Below, in pieces: positions 14,216-20,923 of a stretch of DNA of 64,000 bases; the stretch's first letter is position 1, and every line of letters begins with the position of its first letter. The notes beneath the pieces were generated by a model that was not told the DNA's origin, did no database searches, and saw only the letters and a program-made list of their open reading frames with translations. Source of the stretch: Lysobacteraceae bacterium (GTDB taxonomy: Bacteria; Bdellovibrionota; UBA1018; JAGTJX01); assembly GCA_023657465.1 (NCBI GenBank), contig JAGTJX010000001.1, positions 834,358-898,357 of the forward strand, read 5' to 3'. A program made the position numbers and the translations under genes.

Positions 14216-15868
14216 ATGAGAAAGTTAGGATTGGCTTTAGTTTTTGCTTTACTCACGAGTGCACAACTCCAAGCGAACGTCAGCCTGAAGAATGGTAACT
14301 TCTTCATTGGATACACAGACGTCATCTTCGTCGGTGGTTATGAACCTAAGGTAGAGCGTGTTTATAATTCTAAAACTTCATTCAAAGGAATCTTCGGTCA
14401 TGGCTGGGGCACAGAGATTGAAGGCCAGCTCATCATCTCAGCTGATGGTAGCTTGCTCATCAATGAATACGGCGGTGGAGCAGAGAATAGATTCATTCCT
14501 GTAGGTCAGAAGCCAGAGGATATTGCAAAAGTCATCACGACACTCGTAACACTTGCACAAAGTGGTGGCTTCAATAGTCCAAGTTACAAGGACAAACTGA
14601 AGTCAGACATCGAATTCAGAAACGCGGAATGGGAACGTTGGGTAAGAGCTGGCAAGCTGAAGCGTGTCGAAATCAAAGTAGGAACTCAGTTCAAATCCAA
14701 TAAGTTTAGCTATCAGTATATTACTAAAACTGCACAGAACTACATTCGTGTATTCGATAACGGTAAGCAAGAGGTTTACAATCTCGATGGAAGGTTAGTA
14801 AAAGTCCAAGAGAAGTCTGGTAACTTCATTTCTCTTACCTATAAGAACGGACTTCTTGAGAAGCTCATCGATAATCAAAACCGTAAAATGTTTTTCAGCT
14901 TCAATGCTAAGAAGCTTGTCGAAAAAATCGAATTAGAAGGTTCAGGCTCTTCAGCTTATAAGTATAATCCTCAAGATGAGCTCATCAGCTCTAAGGACAT
15001 GCAAGGGAATGCCTATACTTATGCCTACTCGCCCGATGCGAGGCATAATTTAACTGAGATTGGCTACTCTGATGGGACGAAGATGCTGATTTCTTACTAC
15101 GGTAAGGATCTCTACGAAAACGTGAAGTCCATCAAAGACAAAGACGGATCTTCTACGGATTATCAATATGTTTTCAAAAACGGAAAGTTTCAGTTCATTG
15201 TCACTGTCACCTTGAAAGACAAAAAAGGAAAAGCCTACGCGAATCAGTCTTATGAGTATTGGATTGCGATTAATTCAACAGGCGAAGAGTACACACAGAA
15301 GCTGATCCAAATCATAGATGGCGATAAAACAGAAACCACTTACCATGCTGAGTTCGGTCTTCCTCTTTCGATCAAACGCCAAGATGAGGAGAGTAAGTTT
15401 GAGTACGATCAGAAAGGTAGAATCACATACAAGGAAACAGGATCTGATATCACTCGCTTAGCCTATGATCAGACAGTAGGTAAAATTTCAAAAGTCAGCA
15501 GAAAATCAAAGGGCACTGGCAAAGAGCTAGGTTGGTCGACTTTTGCTTACGATGGAAAAACAGGGAATCTCACTTCAGCTCTCAACTCACAGAAACAATC
15601 TGTTCGTCTCGGCTACGATCGCTTGGGACGTATTGCGACTATGCTCGATCAGGATAATCGTAGGATCGATTTTACCTACAACGCTCAATCGAAACCTATT
15701 GAGATTAAGGATGCTAAGAAGGGTTCTATAAAAATCAAATACGGCGCTAAGGGAGAGATCCAGGGCGTCGATAGTCCACTTGGCCCAAAGGTAGCTATGG
15801 AAGTTACGACTGCGTTTAATAACCTGCTTGAGATTATCCGTCCTGCAGGCGTATCCCTGTCACTTTAG
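14216..15868 (+). CDS. Exported Rhs-like YD-repeat protein
   Basis: The 550-residue protein has a signal peptide (about 1-20, cleavage near 'LQA-NVS'), then an Rhs-type entry motif 'LKNGNFFIGYTDVIF' and 'YNSKTSFKGIFGHGWG'. YD-like repeats run to the C-terminus ('LTYKNGLLEKLIDNQNRKMF', 'GYDRLGRIATMLDQDNRRID'). It is far shorter than toxin-bearing Rhs proteins and ends without an RHSxDP-type core boundary or a variable toxin tail. It begins 3 bases after tadB and ends at the operon terminator, so it is expressed with the pilus. A pilus-associated adhesin or surface shell is a reasonable inference. Confidence 0.75.
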   Translation: MRKLGLALVFALLTSAQLQANVSLKNGNFFIGYTDVIFVGGYEPKVERVYNSKTSFKGIFGHGWGTEIEGQLIISADGSLLINEYGGGAENRFIPVGQKPEDIAKVITTLVTLAQSGGFNSPSYKDKLKSDIEFRNAEWERWVRAGKLKRVEIKVGTQFKSNKFSYQYITKTAQNYIRVFDNGKQEVYNLDGRLVKVQEKSGNFISLTYKNGLLEKLIDNQNRKMFFSFNAKKLVEKIELEGSGSSAYKYNPQDELISSKDMQGNAYTYAYSPDARHNLTEIGYSDGTKMLISYYGKDLYENVKSIKDKDGSSTDYQYVFKNGKFQFIVTVTLKDKKGKAYANQSYEYWIAINSTGEEYTQKLIQIIDGDKTETTYHAEFGLPLSIKRQDEESKFEYDQKGRITYKETGSDITRLAYDQTVGKISKVSRKSKGTGKELGWSTFAYDGKTGNLTSALNSQKQSVRLGYDRLGRIATMLDQDNRRIDFTYNAQSKPIEIKDAKKGSIKIKYGAKGEIQGVDSPLGPKVAMEVTTAFNNLLEIIRPAGVSLSL

Positions 15869-16024: not shown

Positions 16025-16216
16025 ATGAAATACTTAATGGCTTTGAGTTTGTTGGTGTCAGGCATAGCACTCGCTGATTCCAGTGTTCCGCAACTCGGTG
16101 AGTGGTCTAAGGACAAACCACCTTGTACCTGTATATCCGCAGAAGCGTGGGCGAAGAAATCTGAAGCAGAGAAGACCATGGTGAGAGCTCAGTTCAATGT
16201 AAAGAAGGGGAATTAA
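16025..16216 (+). CDS. Tiny exported protein with CxC motif
   Basis: The 63-residue protein has a signal peptide (about 1-17, 'LVSGIALA-DSS'), leaving a mature part of about 46 residues with 'PPCTCISAEAWAKKSEAEK'. No family is recognised. The CTC pair could bind metal or form a disulfide. A GAGAGG ribosome site precedes the ATG, and the gene is first behind the sigma-54-type promoter. It shares only the short string ISAEA with the next small protein. Secretion to the periplasm or outside is likely; its function is unknown. Confidence 0.65.
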   Translation: MKYLMALSLLVSGIALADSSVPQLGEWSKDKPPCTCISAEAWAKKSEAEKTMVRAQFNVKKGN

Positions 16217-16217
16217 T

Positions 16218-16430
16218 ATGAATATCATATTAATTACGTTTTTTTTGTTGGTTGCATCTCAGTCAGCTATTGCTGAAGTGAAGGTCGGTGATCAAGCTCA
16301 AGTCAAATTGGGCGAGAATCGTAGAGGAATCTCTGCTGAAGCGGCTCACTGTAAAGTAGCACAGCTGAAGAGGCTTCAAGATCAAAATGATGACTTGGTG
16401 AACGGCTCTAAAGCTCGCGCAGCTAGATAA
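16218..16430 (+). CDS. Tiny exported protein
   Basis: The 70-residue protein has a clear signal peptide (about 1-19, 'ASQSAIA-EVK') and a basic, polar mature part with 'RRGISAEAAHCKVAQLKRLQ' and one Cys. It starts 1 base after the preceding small gene's stop, with AAGGGG as ribosome site, so the two are co-translated. No family is recognised. The ISAEA string shared with its neighbour is the only sequence link. A role at the envelope beside the Flp pilus is suggested by position only. Confidence 0.6.
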   Translation: MNIILITFFLLVASQSAIAEVKVGDQAQVKLGENRRGISAEAAHCKVAQLKRLQDQNDDLVNGSKARAAR

Positions 16431-16515
16431 GTATTCTTGCTCGTATAGCCAAAGAATATAAATCTAAGGTGTGCTCGCAAAACATTGGGTTTATTGAGCG
16501 GGAGAATATGAAGTT

Positions 16516-17274
16516 ATGAAATATGCATTATTCGCTTTAACATCGGTTTTTTTATCGAATTCATCATTCGCTCAAAGCTCAGGCGAGCTTCTCAGCGTTA
16601 TTAGTAAAAAAGAGAATGCACTCAAACGCGTTTGTATGGGCACATCCGAAGACCAACAAGCTCATGTAAAGCTTGCTATTGCCATTCCTAACGACCTCAC
16701 CAAAAGAGACGAACTTAGAGCTAAGCATATAAAAAATATAAAAGATTTAGATCAGTATGAGGTCAACCTGAATGAAGCGATCCAAAGAAACAACGAACAA
16801 ACCGAAACAATGAAATCTGAGATAGAGCGACTAAAAAAACTGAGCATCAATACAGAAGACTTACAGAAGAGTTACGCCAATCTCATAGAAATAAATGATA
16901 CGCAGTCTTGGCTATGTCGAAAAAGCTTAAAACGAATACCCGGACGAAGAGCAGAGAAGTTCATCGTTGATCGCACAGAAGTAGATGACAAAGACAGCTT
17001 TGAACTTGCCTTTGAAGTTACCTCTTCAAGCAGCTCATTATCAGGTCCAGTGATTGCATCCTCAAGTGCTTCTCGATCTGTTGATTTTAAGCCAGGAAAA
17101 TGGAACGACGATCGCACAGAAGTGAATGTTTGGAATATCACCATCATGGCTCCTTGGTTATTCTTGAAAGAAGGCGAAGAAAATAAGCCAATGCTCAAAA
17201 TCGTAGACGGAGAAGGCAGCTTGTTTTTTTATGATGGTCAGACCATTCCGCTCAACTGCAGAGATCTTGAATAG
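16516..17274 (+). CDS. Exported coiled-coil protein of unknown function
   Basis: The 252-residue protein has a signal peptide (about 1-19, 'SNSSFA-QSS'), a charged helical stretch about 60-125 that reads as a coiled coil ('NEQTETMKSEIERLKKLS'), and a C-terminal half that looks beta-rich. Cys residues occur near 40, 137 and at the C-terminus. It is not a family I recognise. The stop codon is directly followed by the ATG of the astacin-like protease, so the two form a pair and this could be an inhibitor, chaperone or substrate; that is inference. The upstream gap 16431-16515 shows no clear promoter. Confidence 0.6.
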   Translation: MKYALFALTSVFLSNSSFAQSSGELLSVISKKENALKRVCMGTSEDQQAHVKLAIAIPNDLTKRDELRAKHIKNIKDLDQYEVNLNEAIQRNNEQTETMKSEIERLKKLSINTEDLQKSYANLIEINDTQSWLCRKSLKRIPGRRAEKFIVDRTEVDDKDSFELAFEVTSSSSSLSGPVIASSSASRSVDFKPGKWNDDRTEVNVWNITIMAPWLFLKEGEENKPMLKIVDGEGSLFFYDGQTIPLNCRDLE

Positions 17275-18378
17275 ATGTTAAGGGTTCTGACCGGAATCAT
17301 CTCTCTTCTGACGATGTCTAGTCATTCCCACGCAGGTGTTATTTCAAAAAATCATCTTTGGCAAAAAAACAGATTAAAAGTCTGTTTTGCACAGAAGCTA
17401 AAAGATCTCAAAGATGTAAAACTGCCCGTAAATCTTGAGTCACTATCTAAAACATTCACACCATTCCCAGATAACATTGCTGACCTAGCAATTGAAGCAG
17501 TGAAGGAATCTTTCTCAATTCCACTGACCGCTGTTGAGTTCTACGGATTTCAAGACTGTGGTCGACATTCAGATTTTGATGTTGCACTTGTATATTTGGA
17601 CGAACCCGAAGCTTTACTTACCGCAGGTAGTATCGGAGATCCTCACTCTAAAACATCTATCCTTATTCGCTCAGGGTTCATAGATTTCTTCAGAAAAGAC
17701 TGGCAATTGTTTCAGGGTTTCCTTATTCAGAATGAATTATCAAACAAGAGTGCATTTCAGAATGGAGATGCTTTTTCAAATGATGTTTTAAAAAGAGCGA
17801 TCGTTCATGAGTTTGGTCATGTCTTAGGTCTTTTTCATGAACATTCTAGACAAGATGTTCCTCGTTTTGCGAGGCTTCCTCTCTTTGATGATTTCAGCAA
17901 AAACATTGAAAGAATGCATTTGGATCTAGAGAATAGCTCCTATAGTTCTCATGAAGTTTCACATTTCAATATTAATGCTACGATGGGATATTATTGGTTT
18001 ACTTTCATGAGGCTCAAACTGAGACTCGACGCAATCTGCTCTTCATCGATTTCATTTGATGACAATAGATTTCATTCGTTCTTAAATGACTTTGCAGGAA
18101 AACTTTTATTCCTTGATCCTAAACAATATAAAAATATATTCAGTCAACGTTCTTTTGATTCAAGAGCGTTATGTACAACCATTGAGCCCATCCTGAATCT
18201 ATTCACTCATCACGGAGATTCCCTTTACTTAGAAGGTTCTGATATCGAAGCGCTGAAGTTTGGGTATCTTGGTGATACCACTGAGTCAGCTCCATCTAGA
18301 CCTTCGCAAAACTTAAATGAATTGAATGAGATATTTTTTGAATCTGTTTCTAGTTATATTCAGTTATTTTCAATTTAA
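17275..18378 (+). CDS. Exported astacin-like zinc metalloprotease
   Basis: The 367-residue protein has a signal peptide (about 1-20, 'SSHSHA-GVI') and a metzincin zinc site 'HEFGHVLGLFHEHSRQD' (from His178), matching the astacin HExxHxxGFxHExxRxD pattern, with His178, His182 and His188 as ligands and Glu179 as base. A likely Met-turn 'ATMGYY' follows about 45 residues later. Several Cys in the C-terminal half could form disulfides. It starts immediately after the preceding exported protein's stop. In a predatory or lytic lifestyle it could degrade prey or matrix proteins, which is inference. No clear terminator follows. Confidence 0.75.
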   Translation: MLRVLTGIISLLTMSSHSHAGVISKNHLWQKNRLKVCFAQKLKDLKDVKLPVNLESLSKTFTPFPDNIADLAIEAVKESFSIPLTAVEFYGFQDCGRHSDFDVALVYLDEPEALLTAGSIGDPHSKTSILIRSGFIDFFRKDWQLFQGFLIQNELSNKSAFQNGDAFSNDVLKRAIVHEFGHVLGLFHEHSRQDVPRFARLPLFDDFSKNIERMHLDLENSSYSSHEVSHFNINATMGYYWFTFMRLKLRLDAICSSSISFDDNRFHSFLNDFAGKLLFLDPKQYKNIFSQRSFDSRALCTTIEPILNLFTHHGDSLYLEGSDIEALKFGYLGDTTESAPSRPSQNLNELNEIFFESVSSYIQLFSI

Positions 18379-18575: not shown

Positions 18576-18827
18576 ATGCCGAGAAACTCTCCGAGATTCG
18601 TCCCCCAGAAAGTGATCGACTTTGATTACTCGAAACTCAGTCCGGAATTCGCAAGTCTATCCAAGCCCGCTCAAAGGGCGCTGATCAACAATGGAGTTTA
18701 CACCCCAAACCGTCTTGCGGGCCACACACTGATAGAGGTGCGTAAGTTTCACGGGCTTGGTCCGGCCTCGATTCCCATCCTGAGTAAGGTTCTTCGGAAA
18801 AACAAGCTGAAGTTCAAGGACGTTTAA
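18576..18827 (+). CDS. Stand-alone RNA polymerase alpha-CTD-like DNA-binding protein
   Basis: The 83-residue protein matches the helix-hairpin-helix fold of the RNA polymerase alpha-subunit C-terminal domain. 'LSKPAQRALINNGVYTPNRL' aligns with the LSVRAYNCLKRAGI... block, and 'LIEVRKFHGLGPASIPILSK' with the L.k.rNlGkkSleEi block. It lacks any N-terminal dimerisation domain, so it is not RpoA. The N-terminal 25 residues are basic. GC and codon choice look higher than in its neighbours, suggesting transfer. It could bind DNA or compete with alpha-CTD at promoters (inference). A structured RNA directly follows. Confidence 0.7.
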   Translation: MPRNSPRFVPQKVIDFDYSKLSPEFASLSKPAQRALINNGVYTPNRLAGHTLIEVRKFHGLGPASIPILSKVLRKNKLKFKDV

Positions 18828-18835
18828 TCCTAATC

Positions 18836-18946
18836 CTTAGTTCGTGTCACGCGCACTAAAGTAAAAGATTAAATCGCAAAACCTACGAAATCCGGTTTTG
18901 CAAAGAATAACGAAGGATTTCGAAACAAGATTAGGAAACTAATCTT
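18836..18946 (+). ncRNA. Structured RNA: H-type pseudoknot plus GNRA-capped hairpin
   Basis: Stem 1 pairs 18876-18883 (GCAAAACC) with 18894-18901 (GGTTTTGC). Its loop contains CGAAATCC (18886-18893), the exact complement of GGATTTCG at 18915-18922. Together they make an H-type pseudoknot with loop 1 of 2 nt, no inter-stem gap and a 13-nt A-rich loop 3 (18902-18914). A separate hairpin AAGATTAG-GAAA-CTAATCTT (18927-18946) has 8 perfect pairs and a GNRA tetraloop. A weaker stem CTTAGT/ACT(A)AAG lies at about 18836-18861. There is no T tract, so this is not a simple terminator. It could be a 3' UTR element, a processed small RNA or a leader of the next gene. Confidence 0.55.
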
Positions 18947-19031: not shown

Positions 19032-19592
19032 ATGATGAAAGCCTGCTTTTTACTTATTTTGATGTTTGCTATTTTAACCTCAGGGACTTCTTTTGGATTC
19101 ATTAAAGTAGTGGGTGTTCCTTTGAAACAGGCCGAAATTTTAGGTCTTTGGCCAGACTACAAGCTTAAGCTCCTCTCAAATCATGAGCTGGTAATAACGA
19201 GTGCAGAACGAGAAATCCTCAAAAATTTTTGGTCAATTCTTGCTGTAGATGGCGTAGGTCGCAATTTGATTTTTGATTCTGAATATATAGCAAAAATTTC
19301 CACTCAGCTGATTGAGGCTAGAAAATCAGACATCCACAAAAATACCCTTTCTTCCGAACTCGACGCTATTTTTGAAATAGCCAAACAAAAAGACTCAGAG
19401 TTTAATTGTAGTTTTGATGCTACTCAAGGCTCGGTTAAATGCGTGTTTCGTGGTCCTATGGGTAGTGGGTGTTTCTATTCAGGGATGCTTTCCATCCTCG
19501 TTGATCCGAAGACAAAAAAAGCGACCGGAGTTTATCGAAGCACCCTAGATTCTCAAGAATCTTATCAATTTTCAAAGAATTGCCCTGGCTGA
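19032..19592 (+). CDS. Exported protein of unknown function
   Basis: The frame is open from 18951, but the ATG at 19032 (or 19035) is preferred because it begins a proper signal peptide (Lys, then 'ACFLLILMFAILTSGTSFG'). The product is about 186 residues. The mature part has three Cys in the C-terminal third ('FNCSFDATQGSVKCVFRGP', 'GSGCFYSG'), suggesting a disulfide-stabilised periplasmic fold. No family is recognised. The gene lies between the pseudoknot RNA and the IS element, in a region that looks acquired. Confidence 0.55.
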   Translation: MMKACFLLILMFAILTSGTSFGFIKVVGVPLKQAEILGLWPDYKLKLLSNHELVITSAEREILKNFWSILAVDGVGRNLIFDSEYIAKISTQLIEARKSDIHKNTLSSELDAIFEIAKQKDSEFNCSFDATQGSVKCVFRGPMGSGCFYSGMLSILVDPKTKKATGVYRSTLDSQESYQFSKNCPG

Positions 19593-19703: not shown

Positions 19704-20642
19704 TCAGGCTGAGATTCTGATCGCAGAAATGAGTCCATTTGTATGGTCCTCAAGGAACTGTTTTGGAGATTTGTAACCAATTGAACCATGGATTCTGCGA
19801 TTGTTGTAAAACTCAATGAACCTAGTCACGCTCGAATAAACATCCGCGTAAGTAAAAAAATATTTTGGAACAATGAGCTCAGCCTCTAAAATCGAGAAAA
19901 ATGATTTAATGTAGGCATTACGGTTCGGAGTTCGCGGTGGAATGAACTCGTGTTTTAGTTTTTGTTCGAGGCGTTTTAAATAAAAATGAAACTTATTTGA
20001 GCTCATCTGGGACCCGTTGTCTGACCTAATAATTAGTCCATGTTCTGTTGTGATGTTTTCCTTCATCAGAGCCTGGTTCAGAGTAAAAATTAGGTCTCCT
20101 GATTTGATTGACTGACCTACAAAATAATTGATTACTTTTTTTGAGAACACATCAATGAATGCCAGTATAAAGCACCATCTGTTTTCCCCGTGAATCCAAA
20201 TGTATTTTAAATCAAACTGCCAGAGCTGAGTGGGTCTCGTCACGTCGTGATACCCGCATCGCTTTTTCTTAGGGCGCGATCTTGAATCATGTTCTCTAAA
20301 AAGCAATAAATTCTTATCCCTGCAAATACGGTAAATCTTTTTATGATTAATATACATTCCGTAGTCAATTATTAGGTATTTGGAGAGTTTTTTGACTCCT
20401 CCACCATTCGTGTATTCGAGTTGCGCTCGGTAATATTTTAATCGATCCACGATCACGTGATCGTCAATTCTTACTCCATCACGATTGATAGTGAATCCAG
20501 GCGGAGGGCGTCCTACTTTTTTAATCTCGGGATTCTTTTTATGAACATAGATCTGAGTACGACTAAGTTCAGTAATTTTGCACAGCACTCGCAGCGAACG
20601 TCTGCCACTAAACTCGACTACAGTTGATCTGCGTTCTGCCAA
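19704..20642 (-). CDS. IS3-family transposase OrfB (rve/DDE), catalytic Glu replaced
   Basis: The 312-residue integrase-core frame has an N-terminal HTH_21-like part and the DDE domain: 'LWQFDLKYIWIHGENRWCF' supplies the first Asp and 'IRSDNGSQMSSNKF' the second. The third block reads 'NRNAYIKSFFSILEAEL', where IS3 transposases have Glu before SFF (ESFF); here it is Lys (codon AAA). This substitution should abolish strand transfer. Normally OrfB is made as an OrfAB fusion by -1 frameshift on the A8 run at 20653-20660, so the ATG at 20642 may not be used. Confidence 0.85.
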   Translation of the reverse strand: MAERRSTVVEFSGRRSLRVLCKITELSRTQIYVHKKNPEIKKVGRPPPGFTINRDGVRIDDHVIVDRLKYYRAQLEYTNGGGVKKLSKYLIIDYGMYINHKKIYRICRDKNLLLFREHDSRSRPKKKRCGYHDVTRPTQLWQFDLKYIWIHGENRWCFILAFIDVFSKKVINYFVGQSIKSGDLIFTLNQALMKENITTEHGLIIRSDNGSQMSSNKFHFYLKRLEQKLKHEFIPPRTPNRNAYIKSFFSILEAELIVPKYFFTYADVYSSVTRFIEFYNNRRIHGSIGYKSPKQFLEDHTNGLISAIRISA

Positions 20643-20923
20643 CGTGGGTATGTTTTTTTTAACAGAGCGCGCAGGACTTCAACTTCAAATTCCGCATTTT
20701 TCAATTGTTTGGTGAGTTCACGTACTTTCTTCGCTTCACCAATCTGATCTTTATTTTTTTCGCCGTGTAGCCAATTATGAATGGTTTTTGATGAGATTCC
20801 GTATCGCTTACCGACCGTAGTCACCATTCCTACTTCTTGAACTTCTTTTAATATCTGTGCTTTTAACTCCACAGACACTCGTCCTCTGATTCTTGTTACT
20901 GACTGTTCCATTTGATTCTCCAC
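20618..20923 (-). CDS. IS3-family OrfA (HTH protein)
   Basis: The 101-residue protein has an N-terminal helix-turn-helix ('GKRYGISSKTIHNWLHGEKN', about 37-56) and a Leu-rich C-terminal helix ('RELTKQLKNAEFEVEVLRAL') typical of IS3 OrfA oligomerisation. It overlaps orfB by 25 bases in the -1 frame. It binds the IS ends and, alone, usually inhibits transposition. Confidence 0.85.
   Translation of the reverse strand: MENQMEQSVTRIRGRVSVELKAQILKEVQEVGMVTTVGKRYGISSKTIHNWLHGEKNKDQIGEAKKVRELTKQLKNAEFEVEVLRALLKKTYPRWQNADQL
20653..20660 (-). other. Programmed -1 frameshift slippery run (A8 on coding strand)
   Basis: Read on the minus strand, the zero-frame codons TTA AAA AAA ACA contain eight A's. 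Slipping back one base continues from OrfA into OrfB as ...KKNIPTLAERR, giving the full OrfAB transposase. This matches the A-run slippery sites known for IS3 elements. Confidence 0.7.

Follow-up and report, generated by a model that had tools for sequence, protein, structure and literature searches.

A pseudoknot-plus-hairpin RNA element located before secreted-protein genes in Bdellovibrionota

The window analyzed here, a stretch of 64,000 nucleotides, carries one copy of a previously undescribed family of RNA elements that combine a pseudoknot with a hairpin and are absent from Rfam. The element recurs ahead of many unrelated small secreted-protein genes in a handful of uncultured bacteria related to the predatory Bdellovibrio. 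Our results showed that the element is a genuine RNA fold, conserved by compensatory base changes and located on the coding strand. The window copy probably represents a new mRNA element, leader or intercistronic in position, that acts in cis to control the translation or stability of secreted-protein genes and has spread together with them in arrays.

Structure and covariation of the element

An earlier note on this DNA had placed an H-type pseudoknot and a GNRA hairpin at 18876-18946, and direct reading of the sequence bore this structure out to the single base. The element and its immediate neighbors, all on the + strand, are arranged as follows.

16025..18378, +: local gene array of four small/secreted genes (16025, 16218, 16516 and 17275, the last astacin-like)
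18576..18827, +: upstream gene for an 83-aa alpha-CTD/PRK07758-like protein, with its stop codon immediately ahead of the 5' extension and no terminator between
18828..18872, +: 5' extension, defined by homology between copies; TCCTAATC, an imperfect hairpin (CTTAGT..ACTAAAG) and AAAAGATTA
18876-18883, +: stem 1, 5' strand, GCAAAACC; read from the sequence, pairs changed on both sides among copies
18884-18885, +: loop 1, TA; read from the sequence
18886-18893, +: stem 2 (pseudoknot), 5' strand, CGAAATCC; read from the sequence, two-sided changes
18894-18901, +: stem 1, 3' strand, GGTTTTGC; read from the sequence, pairs changed on both sides
18902-18914, +: A-rich loop 3 of 13 nt, AAAGAATAACGAA; several A's nearly invariant by column conservation
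18915-18922, +: stem 2 (pseudoknot), 3' strand, GGATTTCG; read from the sequence, two-sided changes
18927-18934 and 18939-18946, +: hairpin 3 with GAAA loop, AAGATTAG and CTAATCTT; two-sided changes
19032..19592, +: downstream gene, the presumed target; 186-aa secreted protein with signal peptide MMKACFLLILMFAILTSGTSFG and no Pfam match

In the window copy, each of the three stems has 8 of 8 Watson-Crick pairs, and the inter-stem gap is 0. Stem 2 is effectively 7 bp long, its first pair being the least conserved, while hairpin 3 has a conserved 6-bp core (GATTAG/CTAATC) and loop 1 varies between 1 and 2 nt across copies. In H-type pseudoknots, a loop of 2 nt suits the deep groove of a 7-bp stem 2, and an A-rich loop 3 can line the minor groove of stem 1.

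A scan for two perfect interlocked 8-bp stems with comparable loops found only the site at 18876-18946 in the 64-kb window, and the same scan found 0 perfect 8/8-bp interlocked sites on the other strand. A chance origin had been called unlikely, and in agreement with this, 60 dinucleotide-preserving shuffles of the 64 kb contained 0 such pseudoknots, with or without the GNRA hairpin. With the pseudoknot left out, the 125-nt region folded more stably than its shuffles (z = -3.0). A terminator scan of the window found none at the element, as expected from the earlier remark that it lacks a T tract; an intrinsic terminator (G+C-rich hairpin plus T tract) was therefore rejected, the hairpin being followed by TGAATTGG. 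We also dropped a CsrA-type GGA loop as a candidate feature, the loop reading AGGAAAC in the window vs. AGAAAT in the G020 copies.

Compensatory changes, which the earlier note had set as the decisive test, were found in both pseudoknot stems and in the hairpin among homologues collected with BLAST and a covariance model. In the first 13 copies, 11 of the 26 pairs changed on both sides, and the covariation score was 0.34 vs. 0.20 in shuffled alignments (0/500), with slid versions reaching at most 0.11. Among 28 distinct copies, 16 pairs and 90 two-sided cells were observed vs. 29 cells when shuffled and at most 27 in slid controls; these pair counts carry no phylogeny correction, and the slid controls preserve relatedness. 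The covariance model with which the copies were collected and aligned did not include stem 2, so the two-sided changes in stem 2 (3 pairs, 15 cells; A-U to G-C and C-G to U-A) were not fitted. Variants of the helices include GTAAAGTT/AACTTTGT for stem 1 in L044, GGAGTCC/GGACTTC for stem 2 in L035, and GGTTCA/TGAATC for the hairpin in G020, where the window has GATTAG/CTAATC.

Wobble pairs identified the strand that folds. The core helices contain 58 G-U combinations vs. 6 A-C combinations (binomial p = 9e-12), and since A-C corresponds to G-U on the opposite strand, this excess indicates that the coding (mRNA) strand is the folding strand. Several unpaired bases are nearly invariant as well, namely A's in loop 3, the AAA linking stem 2 to the hairpin, the AAA within the tetraloop and the ATT immediately 3' of the hairpin.

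The element is larger than the earlier note had said, as homology among own-genome copies starts ~45 nt upstream, in the CCTAATC..ACTAAAGTAAAAGATTA block at 18828-18872. This 5' extension is common to the own-genome copies and one distant copy (G154: CTGATC...TTAAAGCAAAAGTTTAAATCGC), and RNAalifold gave 0 pairs for its common fold. A CCTAATC/GATTAGG stem that would close the whole own-genome element is present in the minimum free energy structure of the window but cannot pair in the G020 copies, and we do not claim it. In four copies (L029, L030, L044 and L032) the stop codon of the upstream gene falls within the 5' CCCTRATC/CACTGATC motif, and in the first three of these the upstream protein ends KP* at CCCTRATC.

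Distribution of the copies and their neighboring genes

BLAST and the covariance model together yielded ~30 copies. The window's own genome (G000, 2.83 Mb) has four full copies, including that of the window, and two degenerate ones; BLAST recovered the three further full copies and two sites with the 5' extension alone (L002-L006), and a covariance model made from 13 copies added the degenerate copies L031 and L032. Among relatives, the two methods found 13 copies in G020, 7 in G021, 1 in G029 and 2 in G002. Within the order, 5 of 55 genomes carry the element, the window's own included. Using covariance models whose calibration was short, a class-level survey beyond the order added 0 genomes and a phylum survey gave 7 positives among 369 genomes, the extra two (G154 and G163) being weaker matches; good copies occur in 5 genomes only. 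An exact/strict pattern run over 84,980 named genomes hit only 4 environmental MAGs, filed under Bdellovibrionales, Oligoflexia and Deltaproteobacteria, and no match was found in the phages, plasmids and viral contigs scanned.

A GGAG-like Shine-Dalgarno site and then an ATG follow most copies, the ATG usually 20-50 nt past the hairpin, and the copies are co-directional with the downstream gene wherever one exists. A signal-peptide gene follows 23 of 31 copies, as compared to 16 of 54 other window genes judged by the same crude rule; for L034, L043 and L055 the downstream protein also appears signal-peptide-like by eye. About a quarter of the copies are exceptions to the position before the start codon of a secreted gene, and no secreted gene directly follows L028, L030, L042, L050 and L077. 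Tyrosine recombinase genes (L085:7826-8776 and L084:4137-5259) lie near the two own-genome copies with no secreted gene after them, and the L084 copy also has an ISH6-family transposase gene behind it, on the opposite strand.

The downstream proteins resemble one another only in their first 18-28 residues, with the exception of L038/L043 (24% over 176 aa), and those of them that were scanned against Pfam gave no domain match. A leader and signal peptide common to otherwise unrelated proteins point to a 5' module that was shuffled or duplicated; the leader and signal-peptide start appear to have been copied and then fused to mature proteins of different kinds. Furthermore, solitary copies in G029, G002 and G021 (e.g. 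L035, L041 and L043) have a secreted gene downstream and none directly upstream, which ties the element to the gene that follows it.

The window copy is atypical in that its likely ATG (19032 or 19035) lies ~85 nt past the hairpin, and it has AATCTTT in place of the conserved AATCATT (ATT to TTT after the hairpin). No conserved pairing that masks the Shine-Dalgarno site was seen among the copies. Pairing of the 5' strand of stem 2 with the Shine-Dalgarno region (AGAATTT) fits some G020 copies by eye, but not L044 or those of other genomes, and was dropped. An IS3-type transposase pair (19704-20923, - strand) stands right after the downstream gene of the window.

The earlier note had suggested a link to the alpha-CTD-like protein encoded upstream. 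This 83-aa protein matches NCBIfam PRK07758 weakly (43 bits, cut-off 115) and matched no Pfam model. No other copy examined adjoins such a gene, the neighbors being mostly small secreted-protein genes; the alpha-CTD gene is a neighbor of the window copy alone and not a consistent partner of the element. Thus, of the earlier interpretation, the structured RNA and the option of a leader of the next gene stand, the latter because most copies lie just before a start codon, whereas the alpha-CTD link does not.

Copies often occur within arrays of same-strand genes, the longest with about eleven members. On contig 15 of G020, about eleven consecutive same-strand genes, mostly secreted, have a copy in seven intergenic gaps (two of the seven weak), and the own-genome copies are found in shorter runs. 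The run near the window copy includes the astacin-like secreted metallopeptidase (17275-18378) and has an RHS-repeat protein gene beside it (14216-15868).

A probable cis-acting leader and the alternatives

A search of Rfam 15 at gathering and relaxed thresholds gave no family match, only sub-threshold eukaryotic miRNA/snoRNA noise, and we found no description of the element in the literature. Pseudoknots that serve as translational operators or riboswitches include the r-protein S15 and S4 operators, preQ1-I and SAM-II. The element resembles these in having an H-type pseudoknot close to the ribosome-binding site, but its Shine-Dalgarno site is outside the pseudoknot and it has no counterpart in Rfam. 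Its compensatory changes, coding-strand fold and consistent position before start codons are those expected of cis-regulatory leaders in general. Orphan cis-regulatory RNA motifs known from comparative genomics (PMC2864571, PMC6429828) are likewise intergenic, supported by covariation and located just before start codons; the present element differs from them in lying outside Rfam 15 and in having as targets unrelated secreted genes in arrays instead of one pathway. A structured RNA from the same phylum, merRNA of Bdellovibrio bacteriovorus, is a free RNA containing a c-di-GMP riboswitch (PMC3627812), in contrast to the element, which corresponds to no Rfam family.

The coding-strand structure, the intercistronic position and the short offset from the start codon fit a cis-acting mRNA element. 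We propose that the element, which occupies the gap separating a stop codon from the Shine-Dalgarno site of the following small signal-peptide gene, would act in cis in an mRNA that is often polycistronic, where it may control translation initiation and/or shield the downstream cistron from decay. A shared trans factor, either a protein or a small molecule, would probably bind via two features, the A-rich loop 3 and the conserved AATCATT that immediately precedes the Shine-Dalgarno site, and through this factor the otherwise unrelated secreted proteins could behave as one regulon. The sharing of a pseudoknot leader suggests a common control of unrelated secreted genes at the RNA level, and if the leader does bind a trans factor, this factor would provide a new way of coordinating secretion. 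Genes of the TIGR02147/DUF4423 type, which are candidate regulators, were seen directly before the secreted-gene array in G021 (L017:4752-5630, - strand) and, in G154, with an element copy on one side and a secreted gene on the other (L079:927-1724, + strand).

The repeat might instead serve mainly for DNA recombination, as the site of an integron-like cassette system by which secreted-gene arrays are put together, its fold acting as single-stranded DNA, although we regard this as unlikely. Integron attC sites in cassette arrays also separate unrelated small same-strand genes and have a stop codon near the 5' side of the repeat, and the head-to-tail arrays seen here, the upstream stop codons inside or beside the repeat (KP* in L029, L030 and L044), the sporadic distribution and the two own-genome copies near tyrosine recombinase genes all fit such a system. 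However, no IntI integrase (TIGR02249) was found over the cut-off in G000, G020, G021, G029 or G002, the R'' RYYYAAC and R' GTTRRRY cores both flank the repeat in only 1 of 29 copies, and no palindromic whole-site fold is present. Moreover, attC recombines as a folded bottom strand, whereas it is the coding strand that folds here, into a pseudoknot, and the placement of the repeat follows the downstream gene and the distance to its start codon.

Other readings of the fold were given less weight than a cis-acting leader. An H-type pseudoknot before the ribosome site, conserved unpaired A's and the use of a c-di-GMP riboswitch RNA by Bdellovibrio (PMC3627812) would suit a metabolite riboswitch with a pseudoknotted aptamer acting at translation, but this is quite unlikely given that no Rfam riboswitch matched, that the targets are unrelated secreted proteins outside any metabolic pathway, and that no conserved expression platform was seen. 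We consider it very unlikely that the element is a small RNA in its own right, or that it serves the mRNA of the upstream gene as its 3' end or as a processing element: many array copies do lie close behind the upstream stop codon, and stem 1 of the window starts 48 nt past the alpha-CTD gene, but the solitary copies have a downstream gene only and there is no terminator. That the structure arose by chance, or is a dispersed repeat with no function, might be argued from its multicopy nature and partly decayed copies (L031 and L054), but is scarcely credible when three helices covary, wobble is strand-specific, the position is before start codons and shuffling produced zero such structures.

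A second repeated module and its implications

A second, unrelated repeated module, GATTGTTACAYAGCGAYTAGATTTTAAATATT, was found in the own genome just before the starts of four secreted-protein genes, at the following near-identical loci.

L081:5450-5481, -: module GATTGTTACAYAGCGAYTAGATTTTAAATATT
L081:4661-4692, -: module GATTGTTACAYAGCGAYTAGATTTTAAATATT
L082:7320-7351, +: module GATTGTTACAYAGCGAYTAGATTTTAAATATT
L082:7695-7726, +: module GATTGTTACAYAGCGAYTAGATTTTAAATATT

This module is sometimes preceded by the same 5' extension as the pseudoknot element, and it is possible that it is a promoter or an alternative leader. It can be imagined, although we are rather doubtful of it, that these bacteria have a modular secretion-gene system in which recombination attached an RNA leader and signal-peptide start of interchangeable types (pseudoknot or GATTGTTACAYAGCGAYTAGATTTTAAATATT) to unrelated mature proteins and the resulting genes spread in arrays, the agent being either an unknown recombinase that uses the fold as its site or homologous recombination. 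If true, such a system would equip the cell with a set of secreted proteins that is co-regulated and can be enlarged, and if its units move, it would constitute a new kind of gene-array assembly. The element also offers a searchable RNA marker for otherwise unannotatable secreted proteins of uncultured Bdellovibrionota. Finally, a REP-like palindrome, GAAACAACGAAGTTGTTTC, was observed at L005:1577-1620 and in about seven more places in the own genome.
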